Assembly: GCF_013408985.1 (NCBI RefSeq)
Contig: NZ_JACBZT010000001.1
Span: forward strand, 1,364,001 to 1,428,000
Source: Petropleomorpha daqingensis
GTDB lineage: Bacteria; Actinomycetota; Actinomycetes; Mycobacteriales; Geodermatophilaceae
Reading direction: 5' to 3'
DNA: 64,000 nucleotides
The notes below the pieces were generated by a model. The model worked only from the letters and a program-made list of their open reading frames with translations, had not been told where the DNA came from and did no database searches. The translations under genes and the position numbers were made by a program. This document shows, piece after piece, positions 44,324-59,002 of the stretch (within the stretch, counting starts at the first letter, position 1; every line of letters starts with the position of its first letter).

Positions 44324-47065
44324 ATGTTCGGCACGCGCGGCAAGGCCGTCGTCCTCGTGGCGGCGGCGGTGGCGGGGTACGCCGGAGCCGCGGCGTTCTC
44401 GGCCCTGGCGCTGCCGTCGGTCGAGATCGCCTCGGACTACGGCCCGGGCGACGGCCTGACCCGCTACGTCGTCACGGCCTCCGCCGACGCGGTGACCGGC
44501 CTCGATGGGCTGCCCGGCGTCGTCAACTCCCAGCGGCTCTCCGACGGCCGCACGCTGGTCGCCACCGACGGGCTCACCCCCGCGGAGCTGCAGCGCGTCC
44601 CCGGCGTCTCGGCCGTCGAGGTGTCGCCGTCCGTGCCGGTCATGGCCTCCGTGACGGACCCGTACTGGCCGAACTACGGCTGGAACCTCGACAACACCGG
44701 CACGAACGCCTACTCGCAGACCGCCGTCGCCGACGCCGACACCGACGCGCCCGACGCGTGGCCGACCAGCACCGGCTCCCCCGTGGTCGTCGCCGTCGTC
44801 GACACCGGCTACTACACCGCCCACCCCGACCTGCAGGGCGCGCTGTGGACCAACCCCGACTGCGCCACCGACGCCGACGGCGGCGGGCGGGTCGGCGACT
44901 GCCACGGCTGGAACTTCACCACCGACTCCCCCGACGTCGACAACGGCAGCTACGGCACCCACGGGACCAGCGTCGCGGGCGTGATCGCCGCGCGGGCGGG
45001 CAACGGTGAGGGCTCGGCCGGCGTCGCGCCGGGCGTGCAGATCATGCCGCTGGTCGTCGGCAGCGGGGAGAGCGTCGACGTCTACCTGGGCGCCGAGGCG
45101 ATCCGCTACGCCGCCGACCACGGCGCGTCGGTGATCAACGCCTCGTGGGGCGGCGCGTTCAGCGGCCCGGCGCTCGACACGCTGAAGTCGGCGGTCGCCT
45201 ACGCGGCCGCCAAGGGCGTGCTGGTCGTCGCGGCCGCCGGCAACGACTCGGCCAACCGCGACACCTCGATCGTCTACCCGGCGAGCCTGACCGACCCGAA
45301 CCTGATCACCGTGGGCGCCGCCACCGCCGGCGACACGGTGAGCGACTTCAGCGCCTACGGCGCGTCCTCGGTCGACCTGTTCGCGCCGGGCACGCTGGTC
45401 TTCACCACCTGGAACGACGGCGGCTACCGCCTGGTCTCGGGCACCTCGATCGCCGCGCCGCAGGTCGCCGCGGCGCTGGCGCTCTACCGCGCGGTCGACC
45501 CCTCGGCGACCACCGCGCAGCTGCGCGACCGGCTGCTGGCCGACGTCGACCCGGTGCCGGCGTTCGTCGGCAAGTCGGTGACCGGCGGGCGCCTGTCCCT
45601 GACCCACCTCGGCGACAGCAACGACGCCGTGAGGTACGCCTTCACGTCCATGACGTCGCCCGCCGGCACGGTGTCGCCGCACGTGGCCGCCACCGACCCG
45701 GACGCCGGGGTCGGCGCCTACTCAGTCGAGCTCGGCATCGGCATGGAGTACGGCCGCGAGGTCATGGCGCTCTCCGGCGCCGTCGTCACCCTCGGCGGCA
45801 CGTCCGCCACCACGGACGACGACGGCCTGGTCCACTTCGACCTCGGCTCGCTGTCCGGTCTGGACGGCGTCGACATCGCGCCCTCGGTCGACCTGGAGGA
45901 CGGCCGGTACGTGCTGACCGCGCAGGTCTACCGCGACGGCTCACCGCTGGGCCGGGCGCACGCCGCCCCGCTGCTGGTCGGCTCGTCGGTCGTCACCCCG
46001 GGCGGGACGACGGGCGGCTCGGGCTCGGGCGGCTCTGCGCCGGGCGGCTCGACGGGCGACTCGACCGGTTCCTCCGGTGACTCCGCCTCCGGCGGCTCCC
46101 CGACCGGCGACTCGACCACGGGTGGCGCGGATCCGGGCTCGGCGGGCTCGGGCTCAGGCTCTGGCCCGGCCGGGTCCGGCGGCTCCGGCGGCTCCACGGG
46201 TGACCCGGGCGCGGGTCCGGCGCCCGGCAGCTCCGGCGGCAGCACGCCCGGGGACAGCCCGTCCGGCAGCGGGTCGGTGCCCGAGGAGCCGACCGGTTCC
46301 GCCCCGGATGCCACCGGCGGCTCGACGCCTCCGGCCGGCGGCGGGTCCCCCATCGGCTCGGGCACGGGCAGCTCGGGGTCCGGCAGCTCCGGCTCCGGCC
46401 CGGGGTCGGCCGGATCCGGCGACGGCGGTTCGGCGGCTCCGGGCGCCGGGCCGGTGCCCGAGGAGGGCGGCACGGTCGAGTTCCCCGCCGTCGGCAGCTT
46501 CCGGATCACCTCGCTGAGCCCCGCGCGGGTCAGCACCGACGGCGGCACGCTGGTGATCATCGTCGGTGAGGCGCTGCCCAGCGGCGCCAGGGTCCTGGTG
46601 GGCACGTCGGCGTCCGCGACGGTGACCCGGTCCAGCGCCACCGAGGTGGTGTTCCGGGCACCGGCCCGCGTCGCCGGGACCTACACGGTGACGGTCTTCG
46701 CGCCGGACGGCCGCAGCACCGCGCTCGACAGCGCGCTCGAGTACGTCGACGCCACCGCCTCCGGCGGCGCGGGATCGGGCGGCAGCGGTTCGGCCGGGTC
46801 CGGTGGGTCCGGCGGCGCCGGCGGCTCCGACGGCACGGCGCCCGGCGGATCGGGCACCGGTGGATCCGACGCCGGCGGCGCCGGTGGGTCCGGCGGCAGC
46901 GGCTCGGCCGGTTCCGGCGGGTCGGGCGGCTCGGGCGGCACGACCGATCCGGTGGTCCGGCGCGGCCCGCACGGCGAGCGCCTGGTGCAGTCGGCCCACT
47001 TCGCGGGGCTGTCGTCCATCTGGTCGCTGGACTGCTCGGCCGCCTGCGCCGGCGTCGCGATCTAG
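44324..47065 (+). CDS. secreted subtilisin-like (S8) serine protease with TIG domain and Gly/Ser-rich linkers
   Basis: A 913-residue exported protease. It has a signal peptide (1-30), an I9-like propeptide (about 44-108) and an S8 catalytic domain (about 115-430). The triad is intact: Asp160 (VVAVVDTGYY), His213 (YGTHGTSVAG), Ser375 (VSGTSIAAPQ), with oxyanion Asn307 (AAAGN). After a beta domain (about 455-553) come a Gly/Ser/Pro linker (555-715), an IPT/TIG domain (about 725-808), a second Gly/Ser linker (812-873) and a 40-residue tail with two cysteines. The start ATG has GGGAGGGAG upstream. The low-complexity linkers suggest a cell-wall-spanning or multi-domain extracellular enzyme. Confidence 0.93.
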   Translation: MFGTRGKAVVLVAAAVAGYAGAAAFSALALPSVEIASDYGPGDGLTRYVVTASADAVTGLDGLPGVVNSQRLSDGRTLVATDGLTPAELQRVPGVSAVEVSPSVPVMASVTDPYWPNYGWNLDNTGTNAYSQTAVADADTDAPDAWPTSTGSPVVVAVVDTGYYTAHPDLQGALWTNPDCATDADGGGRVGDCHGWNFTTDSPDVDNGSYGTHGTSVAGVIAARAGNGEGSAGVAPGVQIMPLVVGSGESVDVYLGAEAIRYAADHGASVINASWGGAFSGPALDTLKSAVAYAAAKGVLVVAAAGNDSANRDTSIVYPASLTDPNLITVGAATAGDTVSDFSAYGASSVDLFAPGTLVFTTWNDGGYRLVSGTSIAAPQVAAALALYRAVDPSATTAQLRDRLLADVDPVPAFVGKSVTGGRLSLTHLGDSNDAVRYAFTSMTSPAGTVSPHVAATDPDAGVGAYSVELGIGMEYGREVMALSGAVVTLGGTSATTDDDGLVHFDLGSLSGLDGVDIAPSVDLEDGRYVLTAQVYRDGSPLGRAHAAPLLVGSSVVTPGGTTGGSGSGGSAPGGSTGDSTGSSGDSASGGSPTGDSTTGGADPGSAGSGSGSGPAGSGGSGGSTGDPGAGPAPGSSGGSTPGDSPSGSGSVPEEPTGSAPDATGGSTPPAGGGSPIGSGTGSSGSGSSGSGPGSAGSGDGGSAAPGAGPVPEEGGTVEFPAVGSFRITSLSPARVSTDGGTLVIIVGEALPSGARVLVGTSASATVTRSSATEVVFRAPARVAGTYTVTVFAPDGRSTALDSALEYVDATASGGAGSGGSGSAGSGGSGGAGGSDGTAPGGSGTGGSDAGGAGGSGGSGSAGSGGSGGSGGTTDPVVRRGPHGERLVQSAHFAGLSSIWSLDCSAACAGVAI

Positions 47066-47124: not shown

Positions 47125-47198
47125 GCGGGTGTAGTTCAATGGCAGAACATCAGCTTCCCAAGCTGACAGTGGGGGTTCGATTCCCCTCACCCGCTCCA
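47125..47198 (+). tRNA. tRNA-Gly (anticodon CCC)
   Basis: A full cloverleaf can be folded. The acceptor arms are GCGGGTG and CACCCGC, the D-arm is TAGTTCAATGGCAGA-like, the anticodon stem is TCAGC/GCTGA with loop TTCCCAA (anticodon CCC), and the T-arm is GGGGGTTCGATTCCCCT. The discriminator base T is followed by an encoded CCA (47196-47198). CCC reads the GGG glycine codon. No other tRNA is adjacent. Confidence 0.95.
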
Positions 47199-47216: not shown

Positions 47217-47915
47217 ATGCCCTCACCAGCGGACCCCGGCGCCGGTCTCCTCGACGGTCTGGCCGCACGGTTGCTGGCCGCCTCGCCCTACCGGTTCACC
47301 GTCGCGGACGGCCCGGACGACCGCTCGACGGCGTACCGGATCCGTGCGACCGCGAGCATCGAGGCCGGCTGGGCGGCACCGGACGCGTTCCCGGACGGGA
47401 TGGAACGCGACGGGTTCGACGCCGCCGCCGTCCACGTCCTGGGCTGGGACGGCGCCGACCCGGTCTGCACCGGGCGCCTGGTCCTGCCGCCCGGTCCGCT
47501 GCCGACCGAGGTGGCGACCGGGCTGGTCGTGGAGCCGCAGGGGCGGGTCGTCGACGTGGGCCGGATGGCGGTGCTGCGCTCCCACCAGACGTTCGGCCAC
47601 GGGGTCTTCCTCGTCCTGCTGTGCCGGCTCTACCGCGAGGCGCGGGCGGCCGGCTTCGAGTTCGCCTGCGGCATGATGGCGCCCCCTGCCCGCTCGCTGG
47701 TCGACCGGCTCGGCCTGCGGCTGGAGCAGCTGGGGCCCGAGCGGGTGCACCACGGCCAGCTCCGGGCGCCGGTGCGCTTCGTCCTCGCGTCGAACGTCGC
47801 GCCGCTCGTGGACCGGTGGGGCGGCGCGGATCACGGCGGCCGGGATCAGGGCGGCGGCCCCAGCACCAGGCAGGCGTTGACGCCGCCGAACCCGAAGGAG
47901 TTCGACAGCCCGTAG
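47217..47915 (+). CDS. GNAT-like N-acyltransferase (N-acyl amino acid synthase-like)
   Basis: A 232-residue protein with no signal peptide. The central part (RIRATASIEAGW, DPVCTGRLVLP, GRVVDVGRMAVLRSHQ, GHGVFLVLLCRLYREARAAGF) follows the GNAT fold in the version seen in FeeM-type N-acyl amino acid synthases and autoinducer-synthase-like proteins, which use acyl-ACP donors. ATG 47217, 18 bases after the tRNA. It runs into the ketosynthase gene on the other strand and overlaps it by 70 bases. An ACP is encoded 3.7 kb away in the same locus. The acyl acceptor is unknown, and a plain acetyltransferase is possible. Confidence 0.6.
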   Translation: MPSPADPGAGLLDGLAARLLAASPYRFTVADGPDDRSTAYRIRATASIEAGWAAPDAFPDGMERDGFDAAAVHVLGWDGADPVCTGRLVLPPGPLPTEVATGLVVEPQGRVVDVGRMAVLRSHQTFGHGVFLVLLCRLYREARAAGFEFACGMMAPPARSLVDRLGLRLEQLGPERVHHGQLRAPVRFVLASNVAPLVDRWGGADHGGRDQGGGPSTRQALTPPNPKEFDSP

Positions 47916-49075
47916 CCGGCGTCGACCGGGCGGGGGCGGCCGAGGACGACGTCCAGGTCGAGCTCGGGGTCGACCCGCCGGGTGCCGGCCACCGGCGGGA
48001 CGATCCGCGAGCGCACCGCGCGCAGCGTCATGATCGCCTCGACGGCGCCTGAACCGCCGATCATGTGCCCCGTCGTCCCCTTCACCGCCGTCACGGGCGG
48101 CGAACCTCCCGGGAACAGGGCCGAGAGCGCGATCGCCTCGGCCCGGTCCCCCGCCGGCGTGCTCGTGCCGTGCGCGTTCACGTGCTGCACGTCCGCGGGG
48201 CCCAGTCCGGCGTCGGCGAGCGCCAGCCGCATGCAGCGCAGCGCGCCGGCGCCCTCCGGATCCGGTGCGACGAGGTGGTGCGCGTCCGCGCAGGAGCCGT
48301 AGCCGGCGACCGTGCCGAGCACCTCCCCGGCGTCCGGGGCGTCGGACAGCCGCCGGAGGACGACGAAGCCGGCTCCCTCGGCGAGCAGGAAGCCGTCCCG
48401 GTCCGCGTCGAAGGGCCGCGAGGCGAGCTCCGGGTCGGTGACCGTGCGGGTCATCGCGTCGAGCCGCAGGAACGAGCAGACGACGCTGTAGGTCAGCAGT
48501 GCATCGACCCCGCCGGCCAGCACCAGGTCCGCGGCCCCGCGGCGGAGCAGCGCGGCGCCTTCGCCGATGGCGTCGGCCCCGGAGGCGCACGCCGTGGACA
48601 GGGTCAGCACCGGCCCGCGGAATCCGAACTGCAGGGAGAGGAGCGCGGCCGGGCTGCTGGGCATGACGACGGGGATGGTCAGCGGGTTCAGCCGGCGCAG
48701 GCCGTTCGCCAGCAGCTCCTCGTGCTGCTGCTCGTGGTACCCGTTGGCACCGAGCCCGACGCCGCAGACGACGGCGCAGCGTTCCGGGGGAGGCAGCGGG
48801 CCGGCCAGCCCGCTGAGCGCGTCGTGGGCGGCCGCGACGGCGAGATGGTGGCAGCGGTCGAACCGTCGGACCTGCACGGGCGGGAGGTAGCCGCCGGGGT
48901 CCAGGCCGGTCACGCGCGCGACCACGACCCGGACCTCCGGCGGCAGGCGGGGATCGTCGTACGGCTCGGCGAACGACCGCGCGTCGCACAGCGAGGCCCA
49001 GAGCTCGTCGGCGGTCAGCCCGCCCGGCGCCTTGACCCCGGCGCCGACGACGACCACGGGGTCGGGGGAGGTCAT
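47846..49075 (-). CDS. beta-ketoacyl-ACP synthase (KAS I/II type)
   Basis: A 409-residue condensing enzyme. The catalytic set is complete: Cys163 (STACASGADA), His302 (NAHGTSTPAGD), Lys332 and His337 (VKGTTGHMIGG), and the C-terminal NSFGFGGVNACLV loop. It is most like FabF and the ketosynthases of specialised lipid or polyketide clusters rather than a housekeeping FabF, since it has no fatty acid synthesis neighbours and the N-terminus is short (VVVVGAGVKAPGGLTADELW). It lies six bases after the Tat-exported protein gene and is last in the ACP-methyltransferase-Tat-KAS unit. Confidence 0.88.
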   Translation of the reverse strand: MTSPDPVVVVGAGVKAPGGLTADELWASLCDARSFAEPYDDPRLPPEVRVVVARVTGLDPGGYLPPVQVRRFDRCHHLAVAAAHDALSGLAGPLPPPERCAVVCGVGLGANGYHEQQHEELLANGLRRLNPLTIPVVMPSSPAALLSLQFGFRGPVLTLSTACASGADAIGEGAALLRRGAADLVLAGGVDALLTYSVVCSFLRLDAMTRTVTDPELASRPFDADRDGFLLAEGAGFVVLRRLSDAPDAGEVLGTVAGYGSCADAHHLVAPDPEGAGALRCMRLALADAGLGPADVQHVNAHGTSTPAGDRAEAIALSALFPGGSPPVTAVKGTTGHMIGGSGAVEAIMTLRAVRSRIVPPVAGTRRVDPELDLDVVLGRPRPVDAGYGLSNSFGFGGVNACLVLGPPP

Positions 49076-49081
49076 CGGCGG

Positions 49082-49774
49082 CTACTCGACCGACCAGTTG
49101 CCGGCGACCTCCAGCTGGGCGTTGAGCGTCACCGGGTCGACCAGCTGACCGATGCCCGTGGCCAGCATGCGCAGCCGCTGCCCCCCGATGCCGAAGCGCT
49201 GACCCGCCAGGCCCCCGTGCAGCACGCCGGCCTGGGTCTGCGTCATGTCGCCGGTGAGCGTCGGCAGTCCCTGCGCGGCCGCGAAGACGGTCAGCACGTC
49301 CTGGAGGGCCAGGTCGAACCGGGCGACGCGCGTGCCCTGGGAGAAGGACGCGGGACGGTCGAATCGCGCGCCACCGTGCGGCCGCTGGTACACCGACAGC
49401 TCGCCGCCGATGTCCAGCGCGTGCACGGACTGGTCGAGGACGCGCCGCACCAGCGAGCCGTCGGCCGTCACCGTGAACAGCGCGTTCCCGATCGTGGTGC
49501 CCGGTCCTTCGAACAGGTCGGAGAGCTGCGCGCCGGCCAGGGCGGTCAGGATCCCGAGGGCCGCGAAGTCCTGCCCCGTCGAGCCCGATTGCGTGATGCG
49601 GCCGCGGAACTCCACCGCCGTCGCCCCCTGCGGGGCGCGGGCGACCCCCGACCCGGTCGCCTCGGCAACCCCTGGTGCGCCCGCGACGGTCGCGGCGACT
49701 CCTCCGGCGATGGCCAGTCCCGCGCCGGTGAGCACGCCGCGGCGGGTGGGGCGGTAGGGCTCGGAGCCTGTCAT
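49082..49774 (-). CDS. Tat-exported protein of unknown function in the ACP/KAS locus
   Basis: A 230-residue protein with a twin-arginine signal: polar MTGSEPYRPTRRGVLTG (Arg11-Arg12) then a hydrophobic core and probable cleavage near residue 40 (VAEATGSG). The mature part (about 50-230) is beta-rich with regular alternation (AVEFRGRITQSG, GNALFTVTADGSLVRRVLDQ, GGELSVYQR, GTRVARFDLALQDVLTVF, LEVAGNWSVE). This suggests a barrel, loosely reminiscent of lipocalin or allene-oxide-cyclase-like folds, but no family motif is recognised. It has no cysteines. ATG 49774. It lies between the methyltransferase and KAS genes, so an export step in the pathway is possible. Confidence 0.65.
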   Translation of the reverse strand: MTGSEPYRPTRRGVLTGAGLAIAGGVAATVAGAPGVAEATGSGVARAPQGATAVEFRGRITQSGSTGQDFAALGILTALAGAQLSDLFEGPGTTIGNALFTVTADGSLVRRVLDQSVHALDIGGELSVYQRPHGGARFDRPASFSQGTRVARFDLALQDVLTVFAAAQGLPTLTGDMTQTQAGVLHGGLAGQRFGIGGQRLRMLATGIGQLVDPVTLNAQLEVAGNWSVE

Positions 49775-49821
49775 CTCGGTACCCCTCTGACGAGTGTCGA
49801 GCGGTGGACGGGTGCGGGAGG

Positions 49822-51654
49822 TCAGCGCTTGACGCGTGCTCGGCGACGGAGCACGAGCCGGTAGTTGGTCAGGGTGCCGTCGCGGAACTGCCACTCCGAG
49901 GCGGCGAGGTAGCGGCGGAACCGCCGGACCGTCGCGGGATCGGTCGCCCGCGCGGCTGCCTCGTCCGCGGCCCGGAGCCGCAGCTGCCAGTGCCGGAACG
50001 TCCTGGCGAAGTCCCCGGCGTCCGACCGCAGCAGCTCGACCTCGAACCACGGCTCGAAGCCGAGCACGAGCTCGCTCAGGTGCGGGCAGATCGATTCGGG
50101 GAAGAGCTCGAGGACGCAGTCGCCGAGCGGGCCCCGGCCCTTCGCCGCGGCGGTGTCCGGGGCGTCGTCGTGCGCGATGGTCTCGAGGCCGAGGCGCGCC
50201 CCGTCGGCCGTCCAGTCGAAGCAGCGCGCGAAGAAGGACCGGTAGGTGGCGATCCGCTCCGGCCCCGTCGTCCCGTCGCGGGCGAAGTGCTCGAAGGCAC
50301 CGAAGGAGGTGATCGCGTCGTACGGCCGGTCCGGCGCGTGCTCGGCCCAGCTCTCCAGCCGGACGTCGCGTCCCGGCAGCGGCCGGGCGCGCGCCCAGCG
50401 GTGCTGGGCCTCGCTGACCGTGAGCCCCACCGCCGTCCCGGCACCGTGGTGCTGCAGGAGTCGGGACAGCGTGCCGCCCCAGCCGCAGCCGACGTCCAGC
50501 ACGCGGCTGCCCGGGCCGGCGCGGATGCGCTCGGCGAAGAAGTCGTTCTTGCGGTCGAGGGCCGCCTCCAGGTCCGGCGGGTCCCCCGCCTTCCACAGGC
50601 CCGAGGTGTACATCATCGTGGGACCGAGCCACGTGGCGTAGAAGTCGTCGGAGAGGTCGTAGTGGGCCCGGACCGCGGCCGCCGAGGCGCCGGGTCCCGT
50701 CGCGGACGGCCGACCAGCGGTCGCGAGGTCGCTCGGCCGCACCCGCACCGCCCACCTCTTCGGCTCCGGCCGCTTGGTGAGGACCACCCGGTACAGCGCG
50801 TGCTCGCGCAGCCGGAAGCAGACCTCCCCCGCCGCCAGGTACCGGTCGAACCGCCGGGCCACCTCCGGGCCCACCAGCCGCTCGGCCTCGTCCCGGCGAC
50901 GGCGGTAGGCCAGCGCCCAGGCGCGGAAGGTGCGCACGTAGTCGGCGGTGGCGTCGCAGAACCGGGTCAGCCGGAAGTCGGTCTCCCAGCCCAGCACCAT
51001 CTCCGCGAGCGACGCGGGCATCGACTCCGGGAAGACCTCGCGACCGATCAGATCGCCGACCGCGGTCCGGCCCAGCCGGCTCGTCTGCTCGCCGACGCCG
51101 TCCAGGCAGATCAGCTGCAGCCCCACGCGGCCGCCCGGGCGCAGCCAGGAGGCGGCAGCCGCGAAGAACTCGCGGTAGACGTCGACCTTCGTGTCGGAGT
51201 CGCAGGTGTCCGAGGCGAAGTGCTCGGTCGACTCGATCGCCGTGAGGACGTCGTACGGACGGGCCGGACGGTGGTCCGCCCAGCTCTGCAGCAGGTAGGA
51301 GGTCCCGGGCACGTCCCGCGCGGCTGCGGACCGGACCTGGTTCGCGCTCAGCGTCAGGCCCACCCCCGACCGGGTGCCGTGCCGGGAGCGCATCCGGTCC
51401 AGCAGGGCTCCCCAGCCGCATCCCACGTCGAGGACGTCCGCCCCGTCCACCTGCAACCACTCGGCGAACCAGTCGATCTTGCGGTGCTGGGCGGAGGCCA
51501 GGCTGTCGTGCTGCCCGTCCGGCAGCCACAGCGCGCAGGAGTAGACCAGCTCCTCCCCGAGCCAGCACCGGAAGAAGTCGTCCGAGAGGTCGTAGTGATG
51601 CGCGATCGCCGCGGCGGACGTGCCCGCCCGCCGGACGTCCGCCGTGGTCGTCAT
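49822..51654 (-). CDS. tandem (fused) cyclopropane-fatty-acid-synthase-type methyltransferase
   Basis: A 610-residue polypeptide containing two complete SAM-dependent methyltransferase domains of the CFAS / mycolic-acid methyltransferase family: about residues 15-295 and 325-605. Each has the entry motif HYDLSDDF (20-27 and 331-338), SAM motif I LDVGCGWG (75-82 and 386-393), and the later FPES and (L/F)E(S/H)F-type regions (ESTEHF; GAFEHF). They are joined by a short charged linker. The ATG at 51654 overlaps the ACP stop (ATGA), which suggests that the ACP carries the substrate. The known family adds a methylene bridge or methyl group to unsaturated acyl chains. The internal fusion is unusual; no frameshift or stop lies between the halves. 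Confidence 0.87.
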   Translation of the reverse strand: MTTTADVRRAGTSAAAIAHHYDLSDDFFRCWLGEELVYSCALWLPDGQHDSLASAQHRKIDWFAEWLQVDGADVLDVGCGWGALLDRMRSRHGTRSGVGLTLSANQVRSAAARDVPGTSYLLQSWADHRPARPYDVLTAIESTEHFASDTCDSDTKVDVYREFFAAAASWLRPGGRVGLQLICLDGVGEQTSRLGRTAVGDLIGREVFPESMPASLAEMVLGWETDFRLTRFCDATADYVRTFRAWALAYRRRRDEAERLVGPEVARRFDRYLAAGEVCFRLREHALYRVVLTKRPEPKRWAVRVRPSDLATAGRPSATGPGASAAAVRAHYDLSDDFYATWLGPTMMYTSGLWKAGDPPDLEAALDRKNDFFAERIRAGPGSRVLDVGCGWGGTLSRLLQHHGAGTAVGLTVSEAQHRWARARPLPGRDVRLESWAEHAPDRPYDAITSFGAFEHFARDGTTGPERIATYRSFFARCFDWTADGARLGLETIAHDDAPDTAAAKGRGPLGDCVLELFPESICPHLSELVLGFEPWFEVELLRSDAGDFARTFRHWQLRLRAADEAAARATDPATVRRFRRYLAASEWQFRDGTLTNYRLVLRRRARVKR

Positions 51655-51902
51655 CCGGGGGACCGGGCCAGCTCGTCCTGCAGCAGCGCCACGACGTCGC
51701 CCACGGTGCGGGAGACGGTCAGCCGCCGCAGGCCGTCGACGGGCAGCTCCCTGCCCAGGCGGATCTCGAGGTCGGTGAGCACCTCCGCCGCGGCGAGGGA
51801 GTCGAAGCCGAGCGAGTCGAGGGTCGCCTCGTCCGTGATGGACTCCGCGGGCACGTCGCAGATCCGGCTGATCGAAGTCCGCAGCTCCGCCGCCACGTCC
51901 AT
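51651..51902 (-). CDS. acyl carrier protein
   Basis: An 83-residue ACP with the phosphopantetheine attachment motif LGFDSLAAAE (Ser35). The acidic four-helix pattern and length are typical. It is not with fabD/fabH/fabF and so is probably dedicated to the adjacent methyltransferase and ketosynthase. ATG 51902 begins the unit, 97 bases after the stop of the GGDEF-EAL gene on the same strand; this gap must hold any promoter. Confidence 0.9.
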   Translation of the reverse strand: MDVAAELRTSISRICDVPAESITDEATLDSLGFDSLAAAEVLTDLEIRLGRELPVDGLRRLTVSRTVGDVVALLQDELARSPG

Positions 51903-51999: not shown

Positions 52000-54048
52000 T
52001 CAGCGCGCGGTCGGCATCCCGGCGGCGGGCACGGGCAGGATCGCCACGCGGTCCAGCAGCGGGCCGATCTCGTCGCTCGGCATCGGCCGGGCGAAGTGGA
52101 AGCCCTGCGCGATGTCGCAGCCGAGGTCCTGCAGCGCGGCCACGTGCTCGGCACCCTCGACGCCCTCCGCCACCACGGTCAGGCCCAGGTTGTGGCCCAG
52201 GTCGATCGCGGTGCGCACCAGGACGGCGTCCTGCTGGGTGTCGGTCATGCCCATGACGAACGAGCGGTCGATCTTCAGCTCGTCGACCGGCAGCTGCCGC
52301 AGGTAGGCCATCGAGCTGTAGCCGGTGCCGAAGTCGTCGATCGACAGGTGCACGCCCAGGTCGTGCAGCCGCTGGAGCACGTCCAGGCAGCGTGCGGCGT
52401 CGCCCATGACGGCGCTCTCGGTGACCTCCAGGCGCAGCAGGCGGGCCGGCACGCCGTGCTGGGCCAGCAGGGTGGCGACCAGCTCGGGGAGGTCGTCGTC
52501 CATGAGGCAGCGCGTGGAGAGGTTGACCGCCACGGGCACGGGGTGGCCCGTGTCCAGCCAGCGGCGCATCTGGGTCAGCGCCAGGCCGAGCACGCGCTCG
52601 GTCAGCCGCAGGATGATGCCGGTGCCCTCGGCGACCGGGATGAACTCGGCCGGCGGGACCATGCCGCGCTCGGGGTGCCGCCAGCGCAGCAGCGCCTCCA
52701 GCCCCTCGATGTGCCGGCCGTCGAGGGTGAACTTCGGCTGGTAGTGCAGGAGCAGCTCGCCGTCGGTGTCCAGCGCACGGCGCAGGTCACCGAGCACGTT
52801 GAGCCGGGACGGCGCGGTCACGTGCTCCGTGGGCTCGAAGACGACGGCGCCGGCCTTGACCTCCTTCGCCACGTACATGGCGATGTCGGCGTTGCGCAGC
52901 AGCTCCTCGGCGTCCGCCCCGTGCATCGGCGAGACCGCGATGCCGACGCTGACCTCGACGTCCAGCGCGACCCCGTCGACGTCGAAGCGGTGGTGCAGCG
53001 CCTCCCGCAGCCGCTCGGCCACGATCCGCGCCTCGGCGACGCCGTCGACGGCCGGCAGCAGGACGGCGAACTCGTCGCCGCCGAGCCGGGCGACGACGTC
53101 CTGCTCCCGCAGGATCGAGCGCAGCCGGGGGCCGACCTGGCGCAGCAGCGCGTCGCCGTAGCTGTGGCCGAGGCTGTCGTTGATCTCCTTGAACCGGTCC
53201 AGGTCGATGAGCAGCACCGCGACCAGGTCGCCGGTGGTGGCCGACGTCGCGAGCGCGTGCTCCATCCGGTCGCGCAGCTGCACGCGGTTGGCCAGCCCGG
53301 TGAGCGAGTCGTGGGTCGCCTGGTGCCGGTTGCTCTCGACCGAGGACCGCAGGTCCTCGTTCTGCCGGCGCATCCGTCGGGCCACGCCGGCCATGAAGCG
53401 GAACATCACCGCCCAGAAGACCGCGAGGCTGATCGCCAGCGTGATGACCAGCGTCCGGACGCCGTCGGCGATCTCCGCGGCCACCGGCGCGTAGGGCAGG
53501 TAGAGCTCCATGACGCCCTCGGGCGCATCGGCGTCGGAGAACTGCATCGGCACGTAGACCTCGAGCAGCCGCCGCCGGCCGTCGTCCCGGCCCGAGTCGT
53601 CGGCCGAGGACGCGAAGCCCGAGACGACGTGGCCGCGCAGCGCCTCCGGGAGCTCGTCGGAGCTCGAGTGCGTGCCGATCAGGTCGTGGTCGTCGGAGTA
53701 CACGATCGTGCCGGCCAGGTTCATGATGTTCAGCCGCACCGGGTCGAGGTCGCTGACCGCGGAGGAGCGGTGCTGCAGCTCGCTCTGCGCGGACCGCACG
53801 GCCGCCTCGACGGTCGCCAGCCGGGTCGGGTCGAAGCCGTTGGCCAGGTCGGCGCGGGAGAGCTGGGACTGCACGCCCAGGCGCAGCGTCACCGTGGCCG
53901 TCCACTCGGCCTGCTCACGGGCGCGCTGCGCGATCGCGTGGCTGAGCACCTGGGACACGACGAGACCCACCGCGACCGTCAGCACGGCGCTGATCACCGC
54001 GAAGCGGGCGAGCAGCCCGCTGCCGCGGATACGGCGGATCCTCTCCAT
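52000..54048 (-). CDS. membrane GGDEF-EAL protein (c-di-GMP cyclase/phosphodiesterase)
   Basis: A 682-residue protein. An N-terminal helix (13-34) and second helix (about 198-220) enclose an extracytoplasmic sensor domain. The GGDEF domain has an intact active site GGDEF at 323-327 and an inhibitory I-site RXXD (314-317). The EAL domain has EAL at 451-453 and DDFGTG at 571-576, with VTESA and KIDRSF; all key residues are present, so both activities are possible. The start ATG 54048 is the Met directly before the basic stretch and first helix; the frame extends upstream without coding character. It is divergent from the universal stress gene. Confidence 0.92.
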   Translation of the reverse strand: MERIRRIRGSGLLARFAVISAVLTVAVGLVVSQVLSHAIAQRAREQAEWTATVTLRLGVQSQLSRADLANGFDPTRLATVEAAVRSAQSELQHRSSAVSDLDPVRLNIMNLAGTIVYSDDHDLIGTHSSSDELPEALRGHVVSGFASSADDSGRDDGRRRLLEVYVPMQFSDADAPEGVMELYLPYAPVAAEIADGVRTLVITLAISLAVFWAVMFRFMAGVARRMRRQNEDLRSSVESNRHQATHDSLTGLANRVQLRDRMEHALATSATTGDLVAVLLIDLDRFKEINDSLGHSYGDALLRQVGPRLRSILREQDVVARLGGDEFAVLLPAVDGVAEARIVAERLREALHHRFDVDGVALDVEVSVGIAVSPMHGADAEELLRNADIAMYVAKEVKAGAVVFEPTEHVTAPSRLNVLGDLRRALDTDGELLLHYQPKFTLDGRHIEGLEALLRWRHPERGMVPPAEFIPVAEGTGIILRLTERVLGLALTQMRRWLDTGHPVPVAVNLSTRCLMDDDLPELVATLLAQHGVPARLLRLEVTESAVMGDAARCLDVLQRLHDLGVHLSIDDFGTGYSSMAYLRQLPVDELKIDRSFVMGMTDTQQDAVLVRTAIDLGHNLGLTVVAEGVEGAEHVAALQDLGCDIAQGFHFARPMPSDEIGPLLDRVAILPVPAAGMPTAR

Positions 54049-57218: not shown

Positions 57219-58247
57219 TCAGGCGGGGAGAAGCAGCGCGGCGTAGAGCGTGAGGCCGGGCCCGAACGCCATCGCGACGACCGGGCCGTCGACGTCTGCC
57301 AGCTCGTCGAGCACGAGCAGCACCGTGGCCGAGGAGCAGTTGCCGTGCTCGGCGAGCACCTGCCGCGAGGCGGCCATGTCGCTCTCGGCGAGGCCGAGCT
57401 GGTCGCGGACCACGTCGAGGATGCGGGGGCCGCCGGGGTGCACCGCCCAGCCGGCGACGTCCTCGACCCGCAGGCCCGCCCCGGTGAGCAGCTCGTCGAC
57501 CACGCCGCCGACGTGCCGGGCGAGGACGTCGGGCACCCGCGGCGACAGGCCCATCCGGAAACCGAGATCGGTGACGTCCCAGGTCATGTGGTCGGCGGTG
57601 GACGGGTCGGTGCGCGCCACGACGCCGGCCAGCCGGCGGCCGCGGCCGGCGCCGGGCTCGAGGACCACGGCAGCGGCGGCGTCGGAGAACAGCGCGTGCG
57701 CGACCACCTGGTCCAGCGCGGTCCGCGCCGGCTGGACGTGCAGGCTGGTCAGCTCGCAGCAGAGCAGGACGGCGGGCCGGCCGCGGGCGGCCACGTAGTC
57801 CCCCGCGGCAGACAGCCCCGGGATCGCGGCGTAGCAGCCCATGTGCCCGACGAGCAGCCGCTCCAGCCCGGCCGGCATGCCGAGGTCGCTGGCCAGCCGG
57901 ATGTCCAGCCCGGGGGTGGCGTAGCCGGTGCAGGTGGCGACGGCGAACAACCCGACGTCCCCGGGCGCGAGACCGGCCGCGTCGAGCGCACCGGCGACGG
58001 CCTGCTTGCCCAGGGGCAGCGCTTCCTCGATGTATCGGGCCATCCGCGCGCCGGTCCCCCAGCCGGTGAGGTCCTCGTCGGCCGGGTTGGCGACCGCGTG
58101 CCGGGTGCGCACGCCGGAGCCGGTGAAGATCCGGCGGGCGGCCCGGACGCCGGCGTAGTGCTGGGCGAAGAAGCCCTCCCAGACCGCGTCCTGGTCGAAC
58201 GTGGCCGGCAGTGCCGAGCCGGCGCCGGTCAGCACCGCCGCGGTCAC
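57219..58247 (-). CDS. type III polyketide synthase (chalcone/stilbene synthase family)
   Basis: A 342-residue thiolase-fold enzyme. The catalytic triad is Cys138 (VGHMGCYAAIPGL), His270 (GWAVHPGGP) and Asn303 (AEHGNCSSAT), and the C-terminal GPGLT loop is present. It is slightly shorter than plant-like enzymes and probably makes an alkylpyrone or alkylresorcinol-type product from acyl-CoA and malonyl-CoA. The GTG start overlaps the methyltransferase stop (GTGA), so the methyltransferase likely modifies its product. Confidence 0.92.
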   Translation of the reverse strand: MTAAVLTGAGSALPATFDQDAVWEGFFAQHYAGVRAARRIFTGSGVRTRHAVANPADEDLTGWGTGARMARYIEEALPLGKQAVAGALDAAGLAPGDVGLFAVATCTGYATPGLDIRLASDLGMPAGLERLLVGHMGCYAAIPGLSAAGDYVAARGRPAVLLCCELTSLHVQPARTALDQVVAHALFSDAAAAVVLEPGAGRGRRLAGVVARTDPSTADHMTWDVTDLGFRMGLSPRVPDVLARHVGGVVDELLTGAGLRVEDVAGWAVHPGGPRILDVVRDQLGLAESDMAASRQVLAEHGNCSSATVLLVLDELADVDGPVVAMAFGPGLTLYAALLLPA

Positions 58248-59002
58248 CCCTGGCCTCCGGTCATGCCCCGACGGTACGTGCGGTTTCCCGGCGCCGCCTC
58301 AGCCCGTTTGCGTCCGTAACCTGCGAAGACGACGGCGGTCGACCGGATGGGGCGGAACCGGACGCCCTCCCGGCGCCCGAGCCGCCACGCGATCGCGTCC
58401 CGGAACGACGGCCGCAGGCCCACGAGCCTCAGCTCCAGACCCAGCTCGTCGGCCGCCGCGAGCAGACGCGATCGATCGACGAAGAGGGCGGGGTCGTGCA
58501 GCCCCGGGGGCGGGCCGCCGGGCACGTGCTCGAGCAGCCGCACCATCACGAACCGGCTGAGCGCGGTGTCGGCCAGGGCGTCGAGTACGAGGGTGCCGCC
58601 CGGGCGCAGCAGGCGGGCGCACTCGGCCAGGACGGCGACGTCGTCGTCCACGTGCTCGAGCACCTCACCGGCGACGACGACGTCGGCGCACCCGTCGGCC
58701 AGCGGGACCTCGAGCACCGAGCCGCGGACCGGCAGGACGCCGTGCCCGCGCGCGAGCTCGAGACCCGGGAGCCCGATGTCGACGCCGACGTGCCGGTAGC
58801 CGAGCCGTGCGACGTGCGGCGCCATCAGGCCGCCCCCGCAGGCCAGGTCGACCAGCAGCGCGCCGGGACCGGGCGCCGGCGGGATGTGCTCGGCCCGCGA
58901 CGCGGCCAGCCAGTGCAGCGCGGCGAACATGCCGGAGGGCCGCCACCACTGGTCGGCCAGCTCGTCGTACTGGGCCGGGTCGTTCCGGCGGAGCGGGGTC
59001 AC
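58244..59002 (-). CDS. class I SAM-dependent methyltransferase coupled to type III PKS
   Basis: A 252-residue UbiG-like methyltransferase. SAM motif I is LVDLACGGGLMAPHVARLG, followed by GVDIGLPGLELA, VVAGEVLEHVDDD and LLRPGGTLVLDAL. The N-terminal DPAQYDELADQWWRP is typical of UbiG-type O-methyltransferases. The GTG start at 59002 is chosen because it overlaps the stop of the DUF3140-like gene (GTGA); an ATG at 59050 would overlap that gene by a further 48 bases. It could O-methylate a phenolic lipid made by the PKS. Confidence 0.85.
   Translation of the reverse strand: MTPLRRNDPAQYDELADQWWRPSGMFAALHWLAASRAEHIPPAPGPGALLVDLACGGGLMAPHVARLGYRHVGVDIGLPGLELARGHGVLPVRGSVLEVPLADGCADVVVAGEVLEHVDDDVAVLAECARLLRPGGTLVLDALADTALSRFVMVRLLEHVPGGPPPGLHDPALFVDRSRLLAAADELGLELRLVGLRPSFRDAIAWRLGRREGVRFRPIRSTAVVFAGYGRKRAEAAPGNRTYRRGMTGGQG

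Follow-up and report, generated by a model that had tools for sequence, protein, structure and literature searches.

The locus described here lies in a window of 64,000 nucleotides of the genome of Petropleomorpha daqingensis, the window being the whole stretch of DNA that was analysed, and consists of a block of five open reading frames, all beginning with ATG, which together occupy less than 5 kb. Four of the genes are on the minus strand. The first encodes an ACP of 83 amino acids (51651-51902) with the phosphopantetheine motif LGFDSL, which matches PF00550 at 45.7 bits against a cut-off of 20.8 and has the DSL serine, and it overlaps by 4 nt (ATGA) the gene for a fused double CMAS-type methyltransferase (MT; 49822-51654, PF02353). 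The first domain of the MT, D1 (amino acids 1-310; 50725-51654, minus strand), is assigned from PF02353 and alignment columns and carries the SAM motif DVGCGWG; the second, D2 (amino acids 311-610; 49822-50724, minus strand), is assigned from the two stretches matched by PF02353 and retains the SAM motif. A gap of 47 nt separates the MT gene from that of a putative Tat-signal protein of 230 amino acids (49082-49774), so labelled from a reading of its N-terminus, where TRRGVLTG is followed by a hydrophobic stretch, and a gap of 6 nt separates the latter from a ketosynthase (KS) gene (47846-49075) with ketoacyl-synt N and C domains (PF00109/PF02801) and, by eye, the Cys-His-His triad motifs TACASG, NAHGTST and KGTTGH. 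The fifth gene, on the plus strand (47217-47915), encodes a GNAT-fold acyltransferase, assigned from a below-cut-off match to TIGR03694 and an AlphaFold2 model, and it converges on the KS gene with a 70-nt overlap of the 3' ends. The coordinates of the reading frames bear out the tight minus-strand packing, with its ATGA overlap and six-base gap, and the 70-base convergent overlap that had been described in a sequence-only reading of the window.

The reading frames of all five genes are intact, and GC3 is 0.93-0.96 throughout, so that G+C is distributed over the codon positions as in real genes. The ACP serine, the KS triad and both SAM motifs of the MT are likewise intact by reading. The block itself contains no desaturase, reductase, dehydratase, ligase or thioesterase. 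ARAGORN calls a tRNA-Thr(CGT) within the KS coding sequence (48032-48124, minus strand), which is probably a false positive.

The MT matches PF02353 (CMAS/CFAS) at 317.8 bits, in two stretches, against a cut-off of 27, and so belongs to this family; it falls below the NCBIfam equivalog cut-offs (232.8 of 400 bits for PRK11705 and 212.7 of 390 bits for mycolic_MTase). The two domains are 44% identical in alignment and are sisters in the MT tree described below, with support of 96/95 and a long-branch warning, a position which suggests that they arose by internal duplication. The best solved relatives of D2 by sequence are CmaA2 and UmaA. No match row spans both domains in 58 relatives or 393 genomes of the class, so that the fusion is known from the window only and its function could have drifted; two genomes (G039 and G050) have two separate CFAS-type matches side by side, in different frames by their coordinates. 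Among 34 relatives of the same family there is no MT match better than 3.6e-32. A plasmid search with the MT returned 255 records, every one below 60% identity; of the ten that were listed, each is either a single CFAS-type gene or lacks annotation.

The wider distribution of the MT was evaluated by a search of 393 other genomes of the class, with three MT candidates scored per genome, which gave matches with E 1e-32 or better in 25 genomes. Wide neighbourhoods were taken for 26 of the 27 non-own MT rows (L095 was left out), and these 26 loci, referred to as clade loci, were compared with 28 control CFAS loci of relatives (L013-L040), whose flanks of at most 1.5 kb are sufficient for a test of the adjacent 200 nt. 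Using an ACP profile built from four sequences, none of them from MT loci, an ACP was found on the same strand within 200 nt upstream of the MT in 17 of the 26 clade loci (L096, L098-L111, L146 and L147; weakest ACP E 0.003) and in 0 of the 28 controls. An ACP is further away or on the opposite strand in three clade loci (L097, L137 and L138) and is missing altogether from six (L112-L115, L144 and L145). The 17 loci are not independent, because 16 of them represent a single homologous cluster type composed of desaturase, ACP, MT and P450, and the independent architectures with an ACP directly upstream therefore number only about three: the window, L096 and this cluster type. The 4-nt overlap of ACP and MT genes recurs in L096, L098 and L099 according to the gene caller.

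In a tree of 25 of the 26 clade MTs (L109, whose frame is too short, was omitted), the 28 controls, D1 and D2, the clade is split from the control CFAS with support of 100/98, in a sample where clade members were preselected by score and a long-branch warning attaches to D1, D2 and L097. The window MT, being grouped apart from the lipid CFAS and adjacent to an ACP, fits this ACP-partnered clade, and the earlier suggestion of a dedicated ACP partnered with a CFAS-type MT is supported by the adjacency found in 17/26 clade loci and 0/28 controls. The MT clade beyond the window may matter more than the single locus.

The chemistry of the clade can be approached through the residues of the CFA bicarbonate site, which in CmaA1 are C35, E140, H167 and Y232. 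The available part of PMC9821293 also names E140. At the four corresponding columns D1 has C, E, Q and Y, matching three of the four residues, and D2, which departs most, has S, E, E and F. A Gln occupies the bicarbonate-site column in 22 of 25 clade MTs, and a His in 24 of 28 controls; in addition, EHF is found in all 25 aligned clade MTs and in both window domains, the controls having EHV, EHI or EA. As neither domain has the full residue set, plain cyclopropanation by the window MT appears doubtful from these alignments, most of all for D2, and with it the cyclopropanated product that the sequence-only reading had entertained; the site residues would instead favour methyl branching or another outcome. 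The two equivalog cut-offs that the MT falls below are likewise those for a cyclopropane synthase proper.

The neighbourhoods of the clade loci were surveyed by tblastn at E 1e-5; the gene caller was home-made, and most neighbour names, as well as the actinobacterial affiliation of the compared genomes, were assigned by reading. A relative of the membrane desaturase was found in 17 of the 26 loci, a P450 in 16, a FAAL-type ligase relative in 20 (one of them weak, L137) and a KS relative of any kind, distant PKS-like pieces counted, in 10. Relatives of the window GNAT and of the Tat-signal protein were found in 0/26. The five-gene set as a whole was not found in the 58 relatives and the 393 class genomes, which are overlapping samples, in class searches for the Tat and GNAT proteins that scored at most seven first-look candidates per genome, absence in a given genome therefore not being proof. 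Conservation of the set is not borne out.

Several recurring gene combinations can be recognized around the clade MTs. The 16-locus type (L098-L111, L146 and L147) is a conserved gene cluster that combines a membrane desaturase, an ACP, a CMAS-type MT and a P450, often with a FAAL-type ligase and in some loci with a thioesterase. In L097 an ACP, a KS, a ferritin-like desaturase and the MT follow one another on the same strand, and an MmpL-like gene lies further along. The clusters of L137, L138 with L139, and L115, read by eye, contain an alpha-oxoamine synthase, a KS, a MaoC-like protein and the clade MT together with a flavin monooxygenase and a Tat-signal FAD oxidase, and those of L137 and L139 also include tryptophan-pathway-like genes.

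The association of the KS with such MTs is seen from the KS side as well. In a class search which scored at most four first-look candidates per genome, so that absence in a genome is not proof, each of the three best non-own matches to the window KS (G386, G048 and G432; 45-47% identity) comes from one of the 25 genomes in which a clade MT was found. A single contig carries both KS and MT, at most 6 kb apart, in G048 and again in G432. G386 has them on two contigs, which match adjacent parts of the G432 cluster with 81-88% DNA identity; the remaining 17 non-own KS genomes are absent from the clade-MT list. KS thus accompanies clade MTs in several clusters. In a KS tree, with rows picked by score, the window KS groups with the KS of the MT clusters L115, L137 and L139 at modest support (80/83), in a group that also contains KS of loci without a visible MT; the L097 KS belongs neither to this group nor to the 11-row group that includes the genome's own FabF (support 100/100). 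The window KS is outside the FabF group too, is 43% identical to the own FabF, and scores 359.7 of 493.75 bits with the fabF model, all FabF models giving scores below cut-off. The own genome, one contig of 5.38 Mb, carries a separate FAS II operon (L171) that reads, with names assigned by eye, fabD, fabH, acpP and fabF plus a carboxylase gene; the AcpP at C1:3752434 is the best PF00550 match of the genome and is distinct from the block ACP. Given this operon elsewhere in the genome, the block ACP and KS are, judged by sequence, not housekeeping fatty acid synthesis proteins, an identity that the sequence-only reading had named as counting against its own proposal.

The genomic site gives information about the extent of the block. 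To its left lies a tRNA-Gly(CCC) (47125-47198, plus strand), absent from the sequence-only reading, which ends 18 nt before the GNAT start, and to its right a GGDEF/EAL-type gene (52000-54048, minus strand; domain name by reading), which serves as a border marker and is outside the proposed pathway. The GGDEF/EAL gene has near full-length relatives of 65-71% identity in 14 genomes of the same family, and the universal-stress or kinase gene next to it is retained in 12 of these. Eight of the 14 have a tRNA-Gly(CCC) on the opposite strand, no more than about 550 nt beyond the 3' end of the GGDEF/EAL gene (in L176 the called EAL frame overruns the tRNA, the sequence match stopping before it), and the 1.5 kb flanks of the other six contain no tRNA. 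In the window, 4.8 kb with all five genes separates these two markers. Because they adjoin in 8/14 relatives, the most likely history is acquisition of the block, with its GNAT gene, at a site that varies, possibly as one unit. The 3' end of the tRNA has no second copy (att repeat) in the window, and the block contains no integrase. Three of the relatives without a tRNA-Gly near the EAL gene (L175, L177 and L183) have a different gene of about 1 kb there, which suggests a variable site. Directly before the tRNA-Gly is a subtilase-like gene with a long Gly/Ser-rich tail (44324-47065, plus strand), whose first 420 amino acids have no relative in the loci of the GGDEF/EAL relatives, so that the other side of the tRNA also varies.

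The reading of the block that we consider probable, with a clear reservation, is that of a small specialised fatty-acyl pathway in which a chain bound to the ACP is lengthened by the KS and C-methylated by the tandem MT; the block is real, intact and non-housekeeping, and acyl-ACP tailoring is the best reading of it. As we infer its substrate, step order and chemistry, the phosphopantetheinylated ACP would hold an acyl chain drawn from the genome's own FAS II, the KS would extend or condense this chain, and the fused double MT would add one or two methyl groups to it, the site most likely being a C=C bond that one of the genome's desaturases introduces in trans. The product would be a methyl-branched chain or, less likely, a cyclopropanated one; the GNAT would be the best candidate for releasing it as an amide, and the Tat-signal orphan may act on or bind the product outside the cell. 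Both types of desaturase are encoded elsewhere in the own genome, with 52% identity to that of L097 and 50% to that of L104, and an unsaturated chain could thus come in trans. Within 20 kb of these own desaturases there is no PF00550 or MT match, and around the two that were inspected none of the cluster partners on the seed list is present. Against the proposed pathway stand the lack of a desaturase and of the other missing enzymes in the block, the lack of clade-locus relatives of the GNAT and Tat proteins, the altered bicarbonate site of both MT domains, the modest support for the grouping of the window KS with those of MT clusters, the restriction of the fusion to the window among the genomes searched, and the six of 26 loci without an ACP. 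A bolder version, which we regard as speculative and rather less probable than not, is that the block is the smallest member of an unnamed ACP-specific CFAS-type class, in which the two diverged CMAS domains of a single fused enzyme would perform two different methylations on one dedicated acyl-ACP, the KS would set the chain length, the GNAT would release an N-acyl amide and the Tat protein would handle the product outside.

The part of the proposed pathway most open to challenge is the GNAT, which could be an unrelated small-molecule acetyltransferase, the pathway then consisting of the four minus-strand genes; this is a strong contender, to which we give somewhat less than an even chance, and it is compatible with the best reading of those four genes. 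The AlphaFold2 model of the protein (ten-row alignment, pLDDT 75) has the GNAT fold, and its top structure match is SACOL1063, solved with CoA, at Z 18.0, followed by YjcF (16.3), TofI (16.2), LasI (15.6) and FeeM (2G0B; 15.5), where rows within Z 1 are counted as tied and the ranking may be tilted by an alignment rich in small acetyltransferases. TofI, LasI and FeeM, however, match the model over longer stretches. The GNAT fold is in line with the earlier assignment, while a small acetyltransferase matches the model at least as well as FeeM or the LuxI-type LasI does. A Q-x-x-G-x-G loop can be read in the sequence (QTFGHG), which also fits an unrelated acetyltransferase.

The family models point in the other direction, though weakly: TIGR03694 is matched at E 1.1e-12, with 47.9 of the 111.95 bits of its cut-off, and PF13444 at 17.8 bits, below its cut-off of 22.4. 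In a TIGR03694 survey of 117 genomes, 21 besides the own genome have matches, none above cut-off and many better than that of the window GNAT, which is not set apart within the family. By its name, TIGR03694 is presumably also the family of a protein annotated as a PEP-CTERM-associated N-acyl amino acid synthase. That protein made N-acyl amides in E. coli, according to the available part of PMC9762135. Weak matches to the window GNAT were found in 1 other genome of the 58 relatives and 13 others of the 393 class genomes; the nine distinct proteins that were read, seven of 147-177 and two of 229-255 amino acids, are ElaA-like and OlsB-like by eye, and the regions around the matches (wide in ten genomes, and short) contain no KS, MT or ACP relative at E 0.01. 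A plasmid search with the GNAT found no named relative, and neither did two genome-contig scans, which reach close relatives only. That the GNAT gene lies inside the same tRNA-Gly-to-EAL block speaks for its participation in the pathway; that none of the 26 clade loci has a relative of it does not.

The Tat-signal protein is similarly without a counterpart. It belongs to no Pfam or NCBIfam family, its single-sequence AlphaFold2 model has a pLDDT of 33, and apart from chance matches it has no relative in the 58 relatives or the 393 class genomes (overlapping samples). Four matches (in G019, G337, G258 and G113) were judged on inspection to be due to chance: one lies antisense to a transporter ATPase gene, two are in frames of genes reading as an epimerase and a polynucleotide phosphorylase, and one runs beyond the end of a protease gene and across stop codons. 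An allene-oxide-cyclase-like barrel was also considered for this protein and found no support in the Pfam and NCBIfam searches. By tblastn it is also unrelated to the Tat-signal FAD oxidases of L115 and L137, which by eye are two genes away from the MT, and an exported partner may therefore be a recurring theme and not a shared gene.

The next alternative concerns the chemistry of the MT, which could be a polyketide-type C-methyltransferase that acts on the alpha-carbon of a short beta-ketoacyl chain on the ACP, with no alkene, to give a branched polyketide-like unit. The proximity of KS and MT in the window, L097, L115 and L137, the lack of a desaturase in the block and of either desaturase type in L115 and L137, and the altered bicarbonate-site residues of the window MT are all consistent with such an enzyme. 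Enzymes of PF02353 are generally known to act on alkenes, however, and a membrane-desaturase relative is present in 17 of the 26 clade loci and three of the four bicarbonate-site residues are retained in D1, and the alternative is on these grounds unlikely. It has a possible precedent in AmxMT1 of anammox bacteria, a SAM methyltransferase that binds AmxACP3, is described as having no CFA bicarbonate site, is likened to PKS C-methyltransferases and is proposed to carry out alpha-methylation (all from the available part of PMC9821293); its likeness to the window is the pairing of MT and ACP, compared by description only.

That the block is what is left of a once larger biosynthetic cluster, broken and no longer making a product, would account for so small a set, without the desaturase, ligase or P450 of most clade loci and absent from the overlapping samples of relatives and class genomes, but the five intact frames with their normal codon pattern, tight packing and preserved catalytic motifs make this improbable. 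CFA synthases, by the textbook account, act on finished phospholipids, and that the MT methylates membrane lipids in this ordinary way, the ACP and KS serving another purpose, is very improbable in spite of its membership of PF02353 and the relationship of D2 to CmaA2 and UmaA, given its separation from the 28 control CFAS, the ACP genes beside the clade MTs and the ATGA overlap of the window MT gene with that of the block ACP.

Fatty-acyl tailoring on the ACP, the reading retained here, has its closest known parallel in the mycolic acid system of MmaA/CmaA/PcaA with KasA/KasB and AcpM, in which a CMAS-family MT likewise acts beside a KS in an ACP-dependent system; yeast two-hybrid interactions of the mycolic-acid methyltransferases with KasA and KasB are reported in the available part of PMC3245277. 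In the window, by contrast, one block contains a dedicated ACP as well as a dedicated KS, the MT is a fused double enzyme with Gln or Glu in place of the bicarbonate-site His, and the block is without mycolate genes. The desaturase-ACP-CMAS MT-P450-(TE)-FAAL clusters (L099, L104 and homologues) share with it an MT of the same clade and an ACP immediately upstream, but their MT is single, they have no relative of the GNAT or the orphan Tat protein, and KS occurs in them only as distant PKS-like pieces in L098, L108, L109 and L147. The L097 row and the clusters of L115, L137 and L138 with L139 share the combination of KS and clade MT, with an ACP in L097, L137, L138 and L139 and none in L115; they differ in their other partner enzymes, in lacking a relative of the window Tat protein and, for L097, in a KS placed elsewhere in the tree. 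FeeM and the PEP-CTERM-associated N-acyl amino acid synthases resemble the window GNAT in fold and in a weak TIGR03694 match, but the window protein is below the family cut-offs and a small acetyltransferase matches its model better.

In agreement with the sequence-only reading, which knew of no described pathway with this gene set, none was found among the open-access papers listed, which include 20 of 327 and 10 of 28 matches and from which most subscription papers are missing, and the main text of a review of fatty acyl-AMP ligases (PMC11837247), in the part available, contains no word beginning with cyclopropan-. What is new is the fused double MT and its unusual company; CMAS-family enzymes working with ACP-dependent chain building are known. 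If the ACP-coupled clade is what it appears to be, then methylation of fatty chains would often take place on the carrier, before release, in pathways to unknown lipids or natural products, and the block would be a very small version of such a pathway that can be expressed as one unit, in which the fused double MT allows its two domains to be compared directly. About 5 kb from the block ACP, a type III PKS-like gene overlaps by 4 nt a small methyltransferase gene (57219-59002, minus strand; names by eye), and this pair may be a separate small pathway.
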